This document shows, one piece after another, positions 54,619 through 62,714 of a stretch of 64,000 bases of DNA; the first letter of the stretch is position 1, and every line of letters starts with the position of its first letter. The position numbers and the translations under genes are program-made. Origin of the DNA: Candidatus Tectimicrobiota bacterium (lineage in GTDB: Bacteria; JACPUC01); contig JACPUC010000019.1 of NCBI GenBank assembly GCA_016192455.1, positions 253,285 through 317,284 on the forward strand. Reading direction: 5' to 3'. The notes beneath the pieces were generated by a model that was not told the origin of the DNA, made no database searches, and saw only the letters and a list, made by a program, of their open reading frames with translations.

Positions 54619-54695
<77 letters not shown>

Positions 54696-54701
54696 ATACA
54701 A

Positions 54702-55817
54702 TCAATGGGTTGCGGCCTCGCCGTGACCCATTTTTTCATGGATTGTCCGAAAATTGTCCGAATTCTGTCCGCGCAGGTAGTTCTGCATGCGCCTCATTGC
54801 GTCGCGGAGATCACGCTCGTTGGTGATGTCGTAGCGGTCGAAAACGCTCCGCGTGCGGTGGCCGCTTACCGCCATCGCCACCGTTTCCGGCACCCCTGCC
54901 CGCACCATGTTGCGTACCGCCGTACGGCGCAGGTCATGGAAGAGCTTTCCCGGCACCCCAGCCTCCCGGCAGGCGTTCCGCCAGGATTTGCGAAACTCGC
55001 GGATCATGCGACCGTCGCAATGAAAGACGTATTCTGCTAGGAACGTGGTCTTCCCCGCCTTCACTCGTCGCGCTGCCCAACACCGCTCAATCAACTCCCA
55101 GAGGTCCCCCTCAAGGCTGAGGGTGCGTCCCCGCTCATTCTTGGACGCCTCAGGCTTCAGGTGCGCCACACGACCCCCACGGTCAATATCAGACCATGTA
55201 AGCGAGGCGATCTCCCCTTTCCGCCAGCCAGTCAGGTAGGCGAAACGGGTGAAATCCCGCAGGTAGGCAGGGAGTTCTCTCACCACTGGCTCTAATTCGG
55301 CATGCTCAAAATACCCTTGCCTCGCATTCCTTTCGGGAAGCCTTCGTATCCGCGGGCAAGAAGAGACGCGGCCCCGCTCCATCGCAAGCTTGAACGCCTG
55401 CCCCAGAAGCTGCGTCTCCCGGTTGATGGTAGCAGGCTTTCGCCCAGCCTCTAACCGCTGAAGGATATAGCGGTCAACGTCCTCCGCCGTCACATCTACG
55501 ACCCGTCGTTGCCCGAAGCTGTCTTCAATAGCGCGGAGATGTGACCGAAACTGTGCTGCACCCTTCCCACCTTGCAGCTCGTAATGCTGCCGAAGAGCTT
55601 GAAACAACTCACTCACCAGAATGCGCTCTTGCTCAGGGCCTATGAACTGTCGAGCACCAAGCTGATCTGCTGCCACCTCGCGGAGCCTCTTGCGCAGGAA
55701 GCGCTCCGCCTCCCTACGATCCTCCGAGCCGCTGCTCTCGCGGTATTCCTGGCCACGGAGGCAGTAGGAAATCCACCACCTCCGGCCTCGTCGGAATACC
55801 CGGCCTTGACCATGCAT
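54702..55817 (-). CDS. int: Tyrosine recombinase/phage integrase
   Basis: 371 residues. Order: a short N-terminal arm-binding region (GRVFRRGRRWWISYCLRGQEYRES), a core-binding SAM-like domain (about 65-165), then the catalytic domain with Arg in YLTGWRKGEIASLTW, HDLRRTA (H-x-x-R), SGHRT and the nucleophile Tyr in FDRYDIT. It catalyses integration and excision. The gene points toward and ends next to the tRNA used as attachment site, the classic layout. It starts 3 nt after the Xis-like gene stop. Confidence 0.95.
   Translation of the reverse strand: MHGQGRVFRRGRRWWISYCLRGQEYRESSGSEDRREAERFLRKRLREVAADQLGARQFIGPEQERILVSELFQALRQHYELQGGKGAAQFRSHLRAIEDSFGQRRVVDVTAEDVDRYILQRLEAGRKPATINRETQLLGQAFKLAMERGRVSSCPRIRRLPERNARQGYFEHAELEPVVRELPAYLRDFTRFAYLTGWRKGEIASLTWSDIDRGGRVAHLKPEASKNERGRTLSLEGDLWELIERCWAARRVKAGKTTFLAEYVFHCDGRMIREFRKSWRNACREAGVPGKLFHDLRRTAVRNMVRAGVPETVAMAVSGHRTRSVFDRYDITNERDLRDAMRRMQNYLRGQNSDNFRTIHEKMGHGEAATH
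54704..54736 (+). terminator. Terminator of tRNA-fMet located inside the integrase gene
   Basis: AATGGGT (54704-54710) pairs with ACCCATT (54726-54732). The intervening GCGG/CCGT extends the stem around a CCTCG loop, and six T residues follow (54731-54736). It starts 9 bp after the tRNA CCA and lies within the last codons of the integrase gene on the other strand. Confidence 0.8.
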
Positions 55818-56338: not shown

Positions 56339-56758
56339 TTACTCACTGCCTTCGGGTTCAATCTCCTCGATAGTGCCATCGACGTGCTTTTTTGCAGAGT
56401 GAACGATCCTCAGAGCCTCTGCCCCAAGGTTGGCGGCGCCAAGCCTGCATACCTCGTTGGCGGTGTAAGTCACCAAGCCCTCAGGCACCAACCGCTTCGC
56501 CTCCTCCTTAGCCACCAGCGCCACCTTCTCGTTGAGCACCCCGGACCAGATGATGACGACGCTCTTCCCGGCGCGAAAGCGCTCCTCCGCCTCCTCTACC
56601 TGGAGTCGTCGCACGATCTCCTGCTTGTGCTCGCGCAGGGTGGCGCGCAGCTCTTCAGAGACGGCGCCGGGCGGCGCATTGAGGCGGAGTTTCTCCCCAC
56701 ACACCTCATACTCCACGCCCAGGTCGCGCAGTCTTGCCAACAGTTCGGTCGCCATCAT
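56339..56758 (-). CDS. Small protein with a TubC_N-like docking domain
   Basis: 139 residues. Residues 1-55 (MMATELLARLRDLGVEYEVCGEKLRLNAPPGAVSEELRATLREHKQEIVRRL) match the TubC N-terminal docking fold, known from NRPS/PKS systems and also seen in mobile-element proteins. The rest contains a mixed alpha/beta part (KSVVIIWSGVLNEKVALVAKEEAKRLVPEGLVTYTANEVCRLG). It overlaps the primase stop by 4 nt (ATGA), suggesting it works with the primase. Exact role unknown. Confidence 0.55.
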   Translation of the reverse strand: MMATELLARLRDLGVEYEVCGEKLRLNAPPGAVSEELRATLREHKQEIVRRLQVEEAEERFRAGKSVVIIWSGVLNEKVALVAKEEAKRLVPEGLVTYTANEVCRLGAANLGAEALRIVHSAKKHVDGTIEEIEPEGSE

Positions 56759-59199
56759 ATCTCGATGATCTCCCGATCCTCTTCATCGTTCTCTGCGTCC
56801 TCCCCGTCTCCGCCGTGAGTCCTCAAGGTTAAGTCCCGCAAATCGCCGTCACCTCTGTCACCGCCGTCATCGTCTTGTGAATTCAATGAGTTACAGGTGA
56901 CACCCTGGAGTGCCGGTGACTGGGCGCAGGCCGTCTCTACCGCCTCGTCGTCACCTTCGCCGTCACCGCTAAGTTGTTGATGTTTTTGGCGCTTTGTTGA
57001 GTCGTGCTGCCGGGTGACGCGGGTGACGGCGTTTCGCGCCTCTTTGCGAATAATGATGCTACGGCGCTTCTTCGAGCGATCCCACTCAACGCTGATCCCC
57101 ACTTGGCGCAAGCCAGGGGCGAGACGCCGCAGGCGCTGCGCAAGGGTGCTGGCATTTCTTGGCCAGCCGCGCCGCTTGGTAAGCGATTCTTTCCCCTGAT
57201 CCCCCAGCATCCCTTCGAGGGCGCCCAGAAGCTCGGTCGCCATCCCGAGCCATTCGGAATCCCGTTTTTCCATAAACTCCTCAAGCACCAGAGCGACCTC
57301 ATCGACCTGCAGCAGCTCCTCCACGGCACCTCTCCGGTTGCCCTCGTATGCTTGGAGGAATTCGCCGCTCTTCCAGGGCAGGGCTTCCTCGGCTGCGGCG
57401 ACCCACCGGGCCACGTCTGCCATGCGCGGTAACCGTGTCAGGTGGGTGCTTCGCAGATTCCGCAACGCGGCGCACACTGCATCGAGGAGCGCGCCCAGTA
57501 TTCTGGGCTGTGCCTGTTCGAACCCAAGCCACAGCTCGTCTTCCGTGGTCCGGGCCGTATCGCTCAGATGCGGGAGTTCGACGAAGATCGATCGGTCGGC
57601 AAGGTCCTGACGCTGGGCCGGGTTGTTGATGGCATTGAGCAGCACCGGCCGAGTCGCCTCGAAGATGATCTCGTCGGCATCGGTGTAAAGCTTGCGCGTC
57701 CCCAACCCGCCGCCTGTCGCCATGCGGCAGAGCGCGTCCGAGAGCCACGGGGCGATGGTTCCCAGGTTGTCGAACCCTAGAATCCATGCCTGGGATGCCG
57801 ACACCACCAGATCTCGCTCTTCGCGGGGTGCGGAGCGAGCTGGCGCGGCGTTTGGGTCCACGAGCGCACGCAGCAACCTGGCGGTGGTCGATTTGGCGCT
57901 TCCCTGCTCACCCGTGAGGACGAGCACTGGATATGGTCCCATGCCCCTCAACACCGCCAGGAGCCAGCCGACCACTAGCCTGAAGTCATCCTCGCCTGAG
58001 AGGTTCAAGAATCCCCGCAGCTCCATGATGGAGCCGCCACGAAGCGGGGCTAGAAGAGGACGCATCCCGCCACCGCGGGTGAACTTCACCGGAGGACTCG
58101 TGACCAGCCGCCACCCCTCCGCGGTGAGTTCGACGGCCCGCCATTCTGCATCGCAGAGGTCCAAGTAGATGACGCCCTCTTTCCGCGCAACGCGCAGGAA
58201 GACGGACTCCTCGCGCCCCTCGAACTGGGCCTGCGCCTCCAGCGTGGCCAACGCCTCCTGAAGCGCGGCGGCATTCGCCGACCTTCGCCCTTGGCTGTAA
58301 AACCGGTACCGCAACCACCGCTCAAAACCGTTACTTCGGATCAGCCACGTTTCTCGGTGCTCGCCGCTCGATAGGCTGGCGTAGGCCCTGCCATCCTTGT
58401 CGTGGAAGAGGTTTGCCTCGCGCGCCAGCTCGACGAGCATCTGAGCCTGGGATGGGTTGCCGCCCTGGTCCTTCGTCTCTTCTTCAGACGCCTCATCCTG
58501 AGCATCAGTGATCCTCGCACCGTGTGCAGCTTGCGGCATCTTTGGATCGAAGGGGGCCGTTGCCTCAATGAGCTGGAGCAGGTCATCCACAGTTGCCCCC
58601 TGGTTGAGGAAGTCGCTGACATCTCCCCCGGTTGCTTCCAGCGGCAGCAAGACGTTCTTCACTTCCGCGGCAACACGTCTCAGCGCCTTGCAGACCTTGA
58701 CCGCCCCAACTTGGCCCTTGTCATCTGGGTCATTCACGTCGTAGATCACCACCACCCTCTTACCAACAAATTGCGGCGTCCACCCCTTCTTCCACGTGCC
58801 GGCTCCACCTGTGCTCGTCACGGCAGGTAGCCCGACATCCAGGAGCTTCATCCAATCCCATTCCCCCTCACATAGAATTAGGCGATCATGCGAAGTATCA
58901 CCCAAAAGGAACGCCTTCGAGCCCCGGCTGAAGCTCCAGCGTCTGGCCTTGTCCTTCTCCCTGAACCGGTAGCAGTGCTGGCTCTTGCCGTCGGAAGAGG
59001 TGAAAGCGATGCATGGTTCGCCCCCGATGGTGCCACTGCGCGCGCCCGCTTGCTTCAACGTCTCCAGTTGGTAGCTCTTGCCGTTTCGGTGCAACCACTC
59101 AAGCGCTTCCCCGTCGAGCTGACGCAGACGCTCCACCTGCCAGCCTGAAGTGGTCCGCTGGCTGTAATAGCTGCGGGATTCTTTAGCCGTGAGACTCAT
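56755..59199 (-). CDS. TOPRIM primase/P-loop helicase-like replication protein
   Basis: 814 residues. Residues 1-100 have a CHC2-like remnant without a clear zinc site. A TOPRIM domain follows (LILCEGEWDWMKLL with E111; VVVIYDVNDPDD near 149-160; GGDVSDFL near 191). Residues about 395-600 form a P-loop ATPase with LTGEQGSAKST (Walker A, 429-438) and ILGFDNLG (Walker B, D477). The tail is very rich in Asp, Glu and Gly. It probably starts replication of the excised element. Its leader shows terminator and promoter features at 59221-59370. Confidence 0.8.
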   Translation of the reverse strand: MSLTAKESRSYYSQRTTSGWQVERLRQLDGEALEWLHRNGKSYQLETLKQAGARSGTIGGEPCIAFTSSDGKSQHCYRFREKDKARRWSFSRGSKAFLLGDTSHDRLILCEGEWDWMKLLDVGLPAVTSTGGAGTWKKGWTPQFVGKRVVVIYDVNDPDDKGQVGAVKVCKALRRVAAEVKNVLLPLEATGGDVSDFLNQGATVDDLLQLIEATAPFDPKMPQAAHGARITDAQDEASEEETKDQGGNPSQAQMLVELAREANLFHDKDGRAYASLSSGEHRETWLIRSNGFERWLRYRFYSQGRRSANAAALQEALATLEAQAQFEGREESVFLRVARKEGVIYLDLCDAEWRAVELTAEGWRLVTSPPVKFTRGGGMRPLLAPLRGGSIMELRGFLNLSGEDDFRLVVGWLLAVLRGMGPYPVLVLTGEQGSAKSTTARLLRALVDPNAAPARSAPREERDLVVSASQAWILGFDNLGTIAPWLSDALCRMATGGGLGTRKLYTDADEIIFEATRPVLLNAINNPAQRQDLADRSIFVELPHLSDTARTTEDELWLGFEQAQPRILGALLDAVCAALRNLRSTHLTRLPRMADVARWVAAAEEALPWKSGEFLQAYEGNRRGAVEELLQVDEVALVLEEFMEKRDSEWLGMATELLGALEGMLGDQGKESLTKRRGWPRNASTLAQRLRRLAPGLRQVGISVEWDRSKKRRSIIIRKEARNAVTRVTRQHDSTKRQKHQQLSGDGEGDDEAVETACAQSPALQGVTCNSLNSQDDDGGDRGDGDLRDLTLRTHGGDGEDAENDEEDREIIEI

Positions 59200-59220
59200 C
59201 GCGCCTACCTACTTCAAAAC

Positions 59221-59267
59221 AAAAAACCCCAATGCAGTGGCCCGGCAGGAACGGGACCGCATTGGGG
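59221..59267 (-). terminator. Intrinsic terminator just before the primase start codon
   Basis: Minus strand: CCCCAATGC (59267-59259) pairs with GCATTGGGG (59235-59227), with further GC pairing inside, followed by six T residues (59226-59221). Only 21 nt separate its end from the primase ATG at 59199, so primase transcripts coming through it must read past it. This position is typical of an attenuator. Confidence 0.7.
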
Positions 59268-59271
59268 CTTA

Positions 59272-59285
59272 ACACTCGCGAGTGT
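59272..59285. promoter_or_regulatory. 14-bp perfect palindrome in the primase leader
   Basis: ACACTCGCGAGTGT is fully self-complementary. It lies between the candidate promoter and the terminator before the primase, so it could be an operator or, as RNA, a small hairpin. Confidence 0.5.
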
Positions 59286-59341
59286 CGTCCTTGGTGCCCT
59301 TACTGGCCACCCGTTCCTGCGCCGCCCCAGGCGGCACGGGC

Positions 59342-59370
59342 ATAACACCCTTTCATCTATGGAGTTTCAA
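59342..59370 (-). promoter_or_regulatory. Candidate promoter for the primase leader
   Basis: Minus strand: TTGAAA (59370-59365), a 17-bp spacer and TGTTAT (59347-59342). Transcription would begin near 59335 and run through the palindrome and terminator to the primase. The -10 is a moderate match only. Confidence 0.4.
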
Positions 59371-59398
59371 AAATAGGAGGGCACTCTTATTTTTGAAA
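59365..59398. terminator. Long inverted repeat after the AT-rich gene
   Basis: An 11-bp perfect arm (59365-59375 with 59388-59398) continues inward by four more pairs to a 4-nt loop. It lies 21 bp beyond the stop of the gene at 59419. The outer arm is A/T rich (AAAAATA/TATTTTT), so it may act as a terminator in either direction, although no separate T-tract follows. Confidence 0.4.
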
Positions 59399-59418
59399 AG
59401 GCGGGCAGGAACGCTAAG

Positions 59419-60456
59419 TTATTGATTTCCATGGCCTAGCGTGTCAAGTTTCTGGGGGTCAAATAATTGTTCACGTTGCGGTCCTTCCAATTGTTCTAGA
59501 TGTGCAATTAACTCTGGGCATGGCTCCTGGCAATCGCCACCGTGGTCCGGATGCTTTGGGCACGAAGGGCAAAGCTCTTGTTGATCACGGAGCTTCGGCT
59601 GGACTTCACGGGGGTCACGCCGCTGGTATGGTTTTCCGTGAATGAGCTCATAGGCCTTTGCAAAATTAGCATGAACCCATTGAAGAGACTCTCCCGGGAA
59701 TTCTCGATCAACTATTTGCTGATAGGTCAGACGCTCCTCCCTACGCAAATCCCAAATCTTAAAAGCTTTCTGAGCTTCTTCAAAGCGCGTCCTAATATCC
59801 TGTATCTTTATATCGTAAGACTTCATGATCGTTTGCATCTTCTCAATTATCGTTCCAATACGATCTAATAAAACCTTTACAGGAACACGTAGATTAACTT
59901 TAAGAGTTATTTTTGTATGAGGGTAGATATTACGTTTGATCAACTTATTATAACGTCCCTCGCGCATAAGGTTCACTGCTTTTTGCTTTTCTTCTAATGT
60001 TTTGTACTCAAAAAATGCATTCGATATTTCGCTATTCATTGCATCATATTCTTCACAAGTGATGGCTCCATCTAACCAATATTCATTCACATCAAGATGC
60101 AACAATACACCCGGAATTCGTTCCTCAATATTCCAGTCAAGAGATGGAAACACTGGACAGAAAAGACCCCACTTCGACTTAAAGGATTCCATCATACAGG
60201 CCGTAGGTGTCATTTCCGGATAGAATTCATATTCACTCCAATATGGGATATATTCATGATTCTCATCAACATACGGTGAAGGCGGCTGTGGTTTTCCGTT
60301 CATCTGCAGAACCCAACGATAGTGGTATTCATCATTTTCCTTTAGCCATTCCAAGGATTGCTCAAATTCCCAAATATATCTTGGGTTTCTCCTTATCGCT
60401 TGCCAACGAATCCATGCCCTTTTAGCGTACCTATCAGCTTGCTCAGGTATCTCCAT
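59419..60456 (-). CDS. AT-rich gene of unknown function with HTH-like C-terminal segment
   Basis: 345 residues. Its base composition is much richer in A and T than any neighbour, a sign of separate origin. The N-terminus (YAKRAWIRWQAIRRNPRYIWEFEQSLEWLKE) is Trp/Arg-rich and somewhat like the RRNPxY start of DUF6499-type proteobacterial regulators. A segment near 235-285 (RREERLTYQQIVDREFPGESLQWVHANFAKAYELIHG) looks like a helix-turn-helix. A Cys/His patch follows (ELCPSCPKHPDHGGDCQEPCPEL), a possible zinc site. It faces away from ardC across the repeat-bearing region 60457-61012. Confidence 0.6.
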   Translation of the reverse strand: MEIPEQADRYAKRAWIRWQAIRRNPRYIWEFEQSLEWLKENDEYHYRWVLQMNGKPQPPSPYVDENHEYIPYWSEYEFYPEMTPTACMMESFKSKWGLFCPVFPSLDWNIEERIPGVLLHLDVNEYWLDGAITCEEYDAMNSEISNAFFEYKTLEEKQKAVNLMREGRYNKLIKRNIYPHTKITLKVNLRVPVKVLLDRIGTIIEKMQTIMKSYDIKIQDIRTRFEEAQKAFKIWDLRREERLTYQQIVDREFPGESLQWVHANFAKAYELIHGKPYQRRDPREVQPKLRDQQELCPSCPKHPDHGGDCQEPCPELIAHLEQLEGPQREQLFDPQKLDTLGHGNQ

Positions 60457-60509: not shown

Positions 60510-60642
60510 AAAATCCGCCCGCCAACCAATTTAATCCCTTCGCCACCCCGCGGGGGAGGACCTCCCCCTACCCCCCCTGGGGTGCCTGCTCCAAGCCTGC
60601 CGTTTCTCGCCCCACCTTCCCGCGCACGCACCACCTCATCAC

Positions 60643-60811
60643 ATCACTCTGATAGCAACACCCCACCATCGCCGGAGCATTCTCCCACCTCAGCACACGC
60701 GCCGTCCATCGCCCCCTCGCTATCAGAATGATAGCAGCATCACCTTGCTTGCGCTGCACCTCCGCCACCTCATCCTACCACGCTCCCACGACTCCGCAGC
60801 ATCATTTTGAT
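60643..60811. promoter_or_regulatory. Three ATCA-N3-TGAT palindromes at exact 79-bp spacing
   Basis: Sites at 60643-60653, 60722-60732 and 60801-60811 share ATCA-NNN-TGAT followed by (A/C)GCA(A/G)C. The middle site extends to a 7-bp arm palindrome (GCTATCA-GAA-TGATAGC). The sequence between sites is not repeated. They lie between the divergent promoters of the AT-rich gene and ardC, the last 56 bp before the ardC -35. Confidence 0.6.
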
Positions 60812-60866
60812 CGCAGCGCTCCCGCCCCCTGCTTCTCTTCCGCACCCTCTTTCTTCCACTTCGATA

Positions 60867-60895
60867 TTGACAGCTAGTCCATGCGCTACTATATT
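60867..60895 (+). promoter_or_regulatory. Strong promoter of the ardC-like gene with embedded motif
   Basis: TTGACA (60867-60872), a 17-bp spacer and TATATT (60890-60895). The spacer begins with GCTAGTCCATGC, nearly the same as in the promoter at 61858. A third partial copy (TGACAACTAG) lies at 60979-60988 in the leader. This suggests a shared operator. Confidence 0.75.
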
Positions 60896-61012
60896 ACCAT
60901 CATCAAGGGCAGGAGAGAAGGAAGCAGCATACACCGCGCTCCTTCTACTCCGCGCAGGCATTTCTTTGCCTGCTCACATGACAACTAGTGCAACTCAGGA
61001 AGGGAGCACGAC

Positions 61013-61833: not shown

Positions 61834-61858
61834 AGGGGCATTCATTTGCCCCTTTACT
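61834..61858 (+). terminator. Short terminator after the ardC-like gene
   Basis: AGGGGCA (61834-61840) pairs with TGCCCCT (61847-61853), with a 6-nt loop and TTTACTT following. It ends where the next promoter begins. Confidence 0.55.
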
Positions 61859-61885
61859 TGACATCTAGCACATGCAGCTTATAAT
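61858..61885 (+). promoter_or_regulatory. Near-consensus promoter of the Fis-type regulator gene
   Basis: TTGACA (61858-61863), a 16-bp spacer and TATAAT (61880-61885). The spacer carries TCTAGCACATGC, matching the ardC promoter spacer. The expected start near 61892 is only about 7 nt before the best start codon of the next gene. Confidence 0.75.
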
Positions 61886-62332: not shown

Positions 62333-62560
62333 ATGAGGAAGCAGCACACCATGCCTACCGCCAGGCAGGTCGTCCACCAGCTCCGCCTGGACGGCGAAGG
62401 CGAAGACCTCTACGTCGTGGACCGGAAGGGGCTCATTCATGAGCCTCGCCCACGTGATCTGCAACTCACCCTCTTCGAGGAAGGCCATGCGACGAACACG
62501 CCCGCGCTGGGAGAACCGCATCCGCGAAATCCGCCAAAGCAAGCAGATGACCCAACGTGA
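62333..62560 (+). CDS. Small unknown protein
   Basis: 75 residues with AGGGGGGAAG directly before the ATG. The sequence (ARQVVHQLRLDGEGEDLYVVDRKGLIHEPRPRDLQLTLFEEGH) has no family I know. Its 3' end overlaps the XRE gene in another frame, suggesting coupled translation. Starts 11 bp after the Fis-type gene. Confidence 0.5.
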   Translation: MRKQHTMPTARQVVHQLRLDGEGEDLYVVDRKGLIHEPRPRDLQLTLFEEGHATNTPALGEPHPRNPPKQADDPT

Positions 62561-62714
62561 CCTCGCCCGCATCCTGGGCTTCACGGAGTCCTACGTCTCG
62601 CACCTTGAGTCCGGCAGGGCCGCGCCGACCGCGCCAACGCTCCAGAAGCTCGCCGCCGCCCTCGGCGTCAAGGTCGATGACCTCTTCGTGAAGAGCAAGG
62701 GCGCCAAGTCCTGA
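62487..62714 (+). CDS. XRE-family helix-turn-helix regulator
   Basis: 75 residues from the ATG at 62487 (GAGGAAGG upstream). Almost the whole protein is an HTH_3 domain: RIREIRQSKQMTQRDLARILGFTESYVSHLESGRAAPTAPTLQKLAAALGVKVDDLF. It overlaps the previous gene by 74 bp. It is the best candidate in the window for the repressor acting on the shared promoter motifs at 60867 and 61858. Confidence 0.85.
   Translation: MRRTRPRWENRIREIRQSKQMTQRDLARILGFTESYVSHLESGRAAPTAPTLQKLAAALGVKVDDLFVKSKGAKS

Follow-up and report, generated by a model that had tools for sequence, protein, structure and literature searches.

Within the window, the whole 64,000-nt stretch of DNA analysed here, an integrative element carries a primase gene that is preceded by an intrinsic terminator. 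This raises the question of how the gene comes to be transcribed and whether its leader is an attenuator, in which alternative RNA pairings decide between termination and read-through, as an original prediction had proposed.

Genes of the element

The leader is situated on the minus strand between an orphan gene and the gene for a primase/helicase, and further genes of the element follow downstream:

59419-60456, minus strand: orphan gene upstream of the leader, with 42 % GC in an element of 60-65 % GC and a Cys-rich C-terminal region
56755-59199, minus strand: primase/helicase, with a Toprim-type N-terminal part and a helicase (PHROG DNA primase families phrog_6088, 239 and 849, E 9e-11 to 9e-8)
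56339-56758, minus strand: TubC_N-domain protein (PF18563, E 2.6e-12), whose start codon overlaps the primase stop codon
55821-56171, minus strand: AlpA/excisionase-like HTH protein (PF12728, 4e-5; phrog_66, 7e-4)
54702-55817, minus strand: tyrosine integrase (PF00589, 7e-19; phrog_1, 1e-54), beside a tRNA-Met gene (54619-54695)

Gene spacing suggests that the primase and TubC_N genes are co-transcribed and that the same holds for the AlpA-like and integrase genes. As all four genes lie on the same strand beside tRNA-Met, the leader may stand at the start of an operon for replication, excision and integration. The 3' end of the tRNA gene, which would be repeated at an attR site, was not found again in the window, and the genome contained no near-identical copy. 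The orphan gene had no homologues in Pfam, NCBIfam, PHROGs, phages, plasmids, viral contigs or 290 genomes and is possibly a recent cargo gene. At the far end of the window, three CRISPR-DR16 repeats (Rfam RF01330; 63782-63963) adjoin a serine recombinase gene, and the array is truncated by the contig end.

Organization of the leader

Read along the minus strand, the stop codon of the orphan gene (59421-59419) is followed by segment A, an A/T-rich hairpin, a G/C-rich hairpin, segment B and a small hairpin, and then by a palindromic hairpin, the terminator with segment C inside it and the primase ATG (59199). The individual features are:

59413-59405, minus strand: segment A, CGTTCCTGC, region 1 or anti-pre-emptor of the proposed switch, beginning 5 nt past the stop codon of the orphan gene
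59398-59365, minus strand: A/T-rich hairpin between A and B, with 15-nt arms that are 93 % complementary and a 4-nt loop
59337-59319, minus strand: G/C-rich hairpin
59320-59310, minus strand: segment B, GCAGGAACGGG, region 2 or pre-emptor
59311-59293, minus strand: small hairpin 3' of B
59343-59269, minus strand: putative leader ORF of 24 codons, MPVPPGAAQERVASKGTKDDTREC, which spans B and whose stop codon abuts the terminator
59272-59285: 14-bp palindrome, ACACTCGCGAGTGT, a hairpin in RNA or an operator in DNA
59268-59221, minus strand: intrinsic terminator, consisting of a hairpin (59268-59226) and a U-tract ending at 59221
59255-59245, minus strand: segment C, CCCGTTCCTGC, region 3

The elements of the original prediction were recovered at their coordinates. 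The predicted terminator is present as a 17 bp hairpin with a 7-nt loop (-27.9 kcal/mol) and a TTTTTTGTTTT tail, and 21 nt lie between the end of its T-run (59221) and the primase ATG (59199), as had been claimed. The 11-base complementarity of B and C was confirmed in full (11/11), with a predicted duplex energy of -21.3 kcal/mol, and the additional copy, A, is complementary to B at 9/9 positions (-14.7 kcal/mol). A and C form a 10-nt direct repeat (CGTTCCTGCC). The predicted 14-bp palindrome was also present, and no second copy of it was found in the 64-kb window. C had been assigned to the upper part of the terminator, which proved correct insofar as it comprises the 5' arm of the upper stem and the entire loop, UUCCUGC, the latter being the last 7 nt of C; the main stem is not involved. 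In a folded RNA covering 59352-59290, the core of B (AGGAACG) formed the linker between two hairpins and was unpaired with a probability of 0.9-1.0. The A/T-rich hairpin may act as a weak bidirectional terminator for the orphan gene. The 24-codon ORF could be due to chance, since leader ORFs of this length are frequent by chance.

Complementarity of A, B and C compared with chance

As a null model, the 221-nt leader was shuffled 20,000 times with its dinucleotide composition preserved. Inverted repeats of at least 11 nt occurred in 147 of these shuffles (0.7 %), and one shuffle contained an A-B-A triple with a length of 9 nt or above; no other such triple was present on either strand of the 64-kb window. 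In a set of 229 terminator-like hairpins from 3.2 million strand-bases (window and homologous loci), the only ones with an 11-nt complement in the preceding 120 nt were this terminator and two iteron arrays, both at Fervidicola/Thermosediminibacteraceae loci (L089 and L096). The complementarity of A, B and C thus exceeds chance expectation. The motif was not enriched in the host genome, where the 9-mer occurred 111 times and the reversed control sequence 113 times, and there were no one-mismatch copies of the 9-mer near the leader.

Transcription of the leader

The gap between the terminator and the ATG is too short to hold a promoter, so that primase mRNA must read through the terminator. Two candidate promoters were identified further upstream:

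59447-59418, minus strand: candidate leader promoter TTGACA-18-AATAAC, matching 10/12 consensus positions, a score reached by 1.2 % of shuffles; its predicted start (about 59414-59411) is at A
59370-59342, minus strand: weaker candidate promoter TTGAAA-17-TGTTAT, downstream of A, matching 9/12 positions

The second of these is apparently the promoter meant in the original prediction, and it does not stand out from chance, its score being reached in 17.6 % of shuffles. By sequence match, TTGACA-18-AATAAC is the better candidate. Elsewhere in the element, sigma-70 consensus promoters were found on the plus strand at 61858-61885 (12/12) and 60867-60895 (11/12), near the starts of the genes at 61872 and 61013, respectively, and their presence makes a canonical consensus plausible for the leader promoter. 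No plus-strand promoter scoring above 8/12 was found in 59151-59470, a weak test as it is based on consensus matching only, and there was no sign of a counter-transcribed RNA.

Folding of the leader RNA

Folding of the growing transcript indicated a succession of pairings. With A present, A:B was optimal once B was complete, B:C had the lowest energy while the 3' end was at 59245-59236, and after release of the 3' arm of the terminator the optimum consisted of the terminator together with A:B. The minus-strand folding proposed as a check of the original prediction therefore yielded the order A:B, B:C and terminator, which resembles attenuation. When A was left out, B:C formed immediately, and a transcript starting at 59336 gained about 13 kcal/mol by it. 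In the folded terminated RNA (59420-59221) the A:B pairing that had been suggested for the third copy had a probability of about 1, with the loop of C open. The terminator always won at equilibrium, which means that antitermination must be kinetic.

The pairings are mutually exclusive only in part, contrary to what had been envisaged. They do compete in the nascent RNA; however, B:C occupies only the loop of the terminator and the top 4 of its 17 bp, and a lower stem of 13 bp is left. One would therefore expect partial read-through and no all-or-none response. The lower stem might form as a strained pseudoknot and still terminate. Attenuation as originally proposed is thus partly supported: it is favoured by the sequence features, by nascent-RNA folding and by the need for read-through, and weakened by the partial exclusivity of the pairings and by the lack of the arrangement in the distant primase homologues examined.

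Proposed attenuation mechanism

On this basis the leader is tentatively interpreted as a cis-acting transcription attenuator of the pre-emptor type, acting on the replication operon of the element with a 1-2-3-4 logic, at what we consider slightly below an even chance. Region 1 (A) would be made first and would capture region 2 (B) upon its synthesis. With B captured, region 3 (C) would be free for the terminator and transcription would stop, so that the default state would be off. If A were missing or masked, B would act as a pre-emptor and pair with C before the 3' arm of the terminator exists; this would weaken the terminator and allow polymerase to continue into the primase, TubC_N, AlpA-like and integrase genes. 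A might be lost by a transcription start downstream of it or through masking by a protein or another RNA. A ribosome at the stop codon of the upstream gene could be such a masker, with a footprint that, judged by known toeprint distances, would cover about half of A. We infer actual termination by RNA polymerase, the presence of A in the transcript and the identity of the masker of A. No convincing signal or sensor for the switch was found in the leader.

Comparison with known RNA switches

In pT181 repC, the terminator directly precedes the start codon, and its 5' arm is the pairing partner of a pre-emptor (PMC5703833). In this system and in pIP501 repR, the pre-emptor in the leader competes for part of the terminator, with the default decision taken in the nascent RNA (PMC5703833, PMC4981023). 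An antisense RNA from the opposite strand silences the pre-emptor there. The present leader is similar in that its terminator immediately precedes the start codon of a replication gene, here by 21 nt. For B as the candidate pre-emptor, B:C is optimal in the nascent RNA but blocks just 4 of 17 bp. The leader differs in that the candidate silencer of B is A, on the same strand and upstream; no opposite-strand promoter above 8/12 was found in the leader. The gene that would be controlled is also different, being the primase/helicase of an integrative element instead of a plasmid Rep.

In attenuators of the trp type, 1:2 and 3:4 pairing leads to termination while 2:3 pairing antiterminates. As in these systems, occupation of region 1 by a ribosome or another factor could change the outcome. 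Here, however, the overlap of 2:3 with 3:4 is limited to the loop and the uppermost 4 bp, and the leader lacks an amino-acid-rich leader peptide.

In its arrangement the leader strongly resembles the immunity region of phage P4. The CI RNA of phage P4 pairs with seqA and seqC and thereby causes premature termination (PMC4825925). P4 CI (seqA/seqB/seqC) and the C4 antisense RNAs of P1/P7 (RF01695) have target, antisense and target in this order on the same strand, as does the leader described here. Also shared are the location in the replication-operon leader of an integrative element, the A-hairpin-B-C order and premature termination as the outcome, which is predicted in the present case. In contrast, this leader has neither the homology nor the fold of C4, and it has one complementary segment where those RNAs have two. 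Its C lies in the loop of an intrinsic terminator whereas theirs overlaps the ribosome-binding site of the first gene, and action in trans is hypothetical here.

Given its competing folds around a terminator, the leader probably switches copying of the element on and off at the RNA level. If so, RNA-based premature termination would control the replication operon of an integrative element outside plasmids and phages of the P4/P1 type. The segment order would combine the pre-emptor logic of pT181 with the same-strand repeats of P4, a mixture that would suggest repeated origin of such switches. The scan for A-B-A triples also recovers the immunity sites of P4 and could be applied to other elements.

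Relatives of the element

The primase family is widespread and little studied, with at least 409 confirmed relatives in a scan of bacterial genomes. In GTDB genomes and IMG/VR, full-length pattern scans detected no relative with more than 51 % primase identity, while an alignment-based scan returned 160 loci with distant primase homologues. The A-B-C arrangement was absent from the upstream regions of the homologues examined, whose primases are at most 51 % identical. Neither an A-B-A triple nor a terminator before the start codon was present in any of the 13 folded leaders of homologues with a fused Toprim. Close relatives were not found in GTDB genomes, viral contigs, phages, plasmids or 145 genomes, nor by leader DNA; the 145 genomes, chosen as relatives, share only the domain with the host and include no other member of its phylum. 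The exact pattern of B followed by C was encountered in two viral contigs. Both matches were rejected, since the first fell within a terminase-like ORF and the second was located where an unrelated gene ends.

Alternative explanations

Three other accounts of the leader were considered. In immunity of the P4 type, a middle RNA bearing B, either processed or made from its own promoter, would act in trans on A and C, which we consider unlikely; its outcome, early termination by which a resident element silences its own and incoming replication operons, is unlikely to the same degree. The same-strand complementarity of A, B and C flanking an RNA in a replication-operon leader is a feature of P4-type systems that was found here, and the layout follows that of P4, with A, a hairpin with a U-rich arm, a structured RNA exposing the antisense B, and then C close to the ribosome-binding site of the first gene. 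The core of B is predicted to be exposed in the isolated RNA. Pairing of the B-RNA with the A region was predicted at -13.1 kcal/mol, better than with most shuffled targets (11/300), and an 8-mer scan of the P4 leader yielded one triple, TTCACAGG-CCTGTGAA-TTCACAGG, whose B lies within the Rfam C4/CI match. However, the Rfam covariance model for C4 (RF01695) had no match at E<=5 in 59195-59425, compared with 74.9 bits for P4 as the positive control. The middle RNA also lacks the C4 fold, in which a long stem closes the structure and a hairpin loop presents the antisense segment; separate short hairpins are predicted instead, with B in the linker. Transcripts containing A are predicted to have B sequestered by A, and an interaction between the B-RNA and the C hairpin was not predicted without kissing pairing (+0.7). 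Other Rfam near-misses (mir-586, anti-hemB and others) were far below their cut-offs and were discarded. The leader may function in a P4-like manner, yet by the tests run it is no member of the C4 family. P4-like RNA immunity arising independently of that family in an isolated bacterial lineage, in which a small RNA from the leader would force termination of the element's own and incoming copies, carries a slightly lower probability again.

An ordinary terminator that ends the upstream gene, with the primase expressed by leaky read-through and the match of A, B and C a coincidence or relic, is similarly given a small probability. Intergenic terminators are common, the arrangement was absent from every homologue examined, and the window gives many findings, among which a rare coincidence somewhere is possible. 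Set against this, the A-B-A triple arose in one of 20,000 shuffles and has no counterpart elsewhere in the 64 kb. The stop codon of the upstream gene is, moreover, directly followed by another hairpin (59398-59365), 100 nt before the terminator, and an additional accident would be needed for C to match the loop exactly. The least probable account, and one we regard as quite doubtful, is that A, B and C are DNA sites, such as iterons or operators for the primase or an HTH regulator (an HTH protein is encoded at 62439-62714), in or near a replication control region, with RNA pairing as a by-product. The 14-bp palindrome within the leader and the annotated mixed-orientation ori repeats of P4 agree with such a role, as do similar repeat arrays beside the primases of relatives (L019, L089/L096, L164 and others); the occurrence of iteron arrays in many relatives is what keeps DNA sites in contention. 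The leader, by comparison, has just three copies and no degenerate ones nearby where the relatives have many, its palindrome lacks a second copy, and C coincides exactly with the terminator loop and B with the exposed linker. A better candidate for an origin also exists at 60560-60960. Of these readings, we regard the cis-acting attenuator as the likeliest.

Repeat arrays and a candidate origin

Dense arrays of repeats in mixed orientation were observed beside the primase gene in seven relatives (L089, L096, L019, L112, L147, L156 and L164). These arrays, which lie mostly downstream of the primase, are likely to be the iteron origins of the primase family. L164 was the sole homologue with many mixed repeats upstream, in a multi-copy, iteron-like array. 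In the element itself, the intergenic region at 60560-60960 has a strong GC skew (-0.44). It also contains a 14-nt inverted repeat and three repeats of 18 nt at intervals of exactly 79 and 79 bp. These sequence features make it a candidate replication origin of the element, likelier than the leader.
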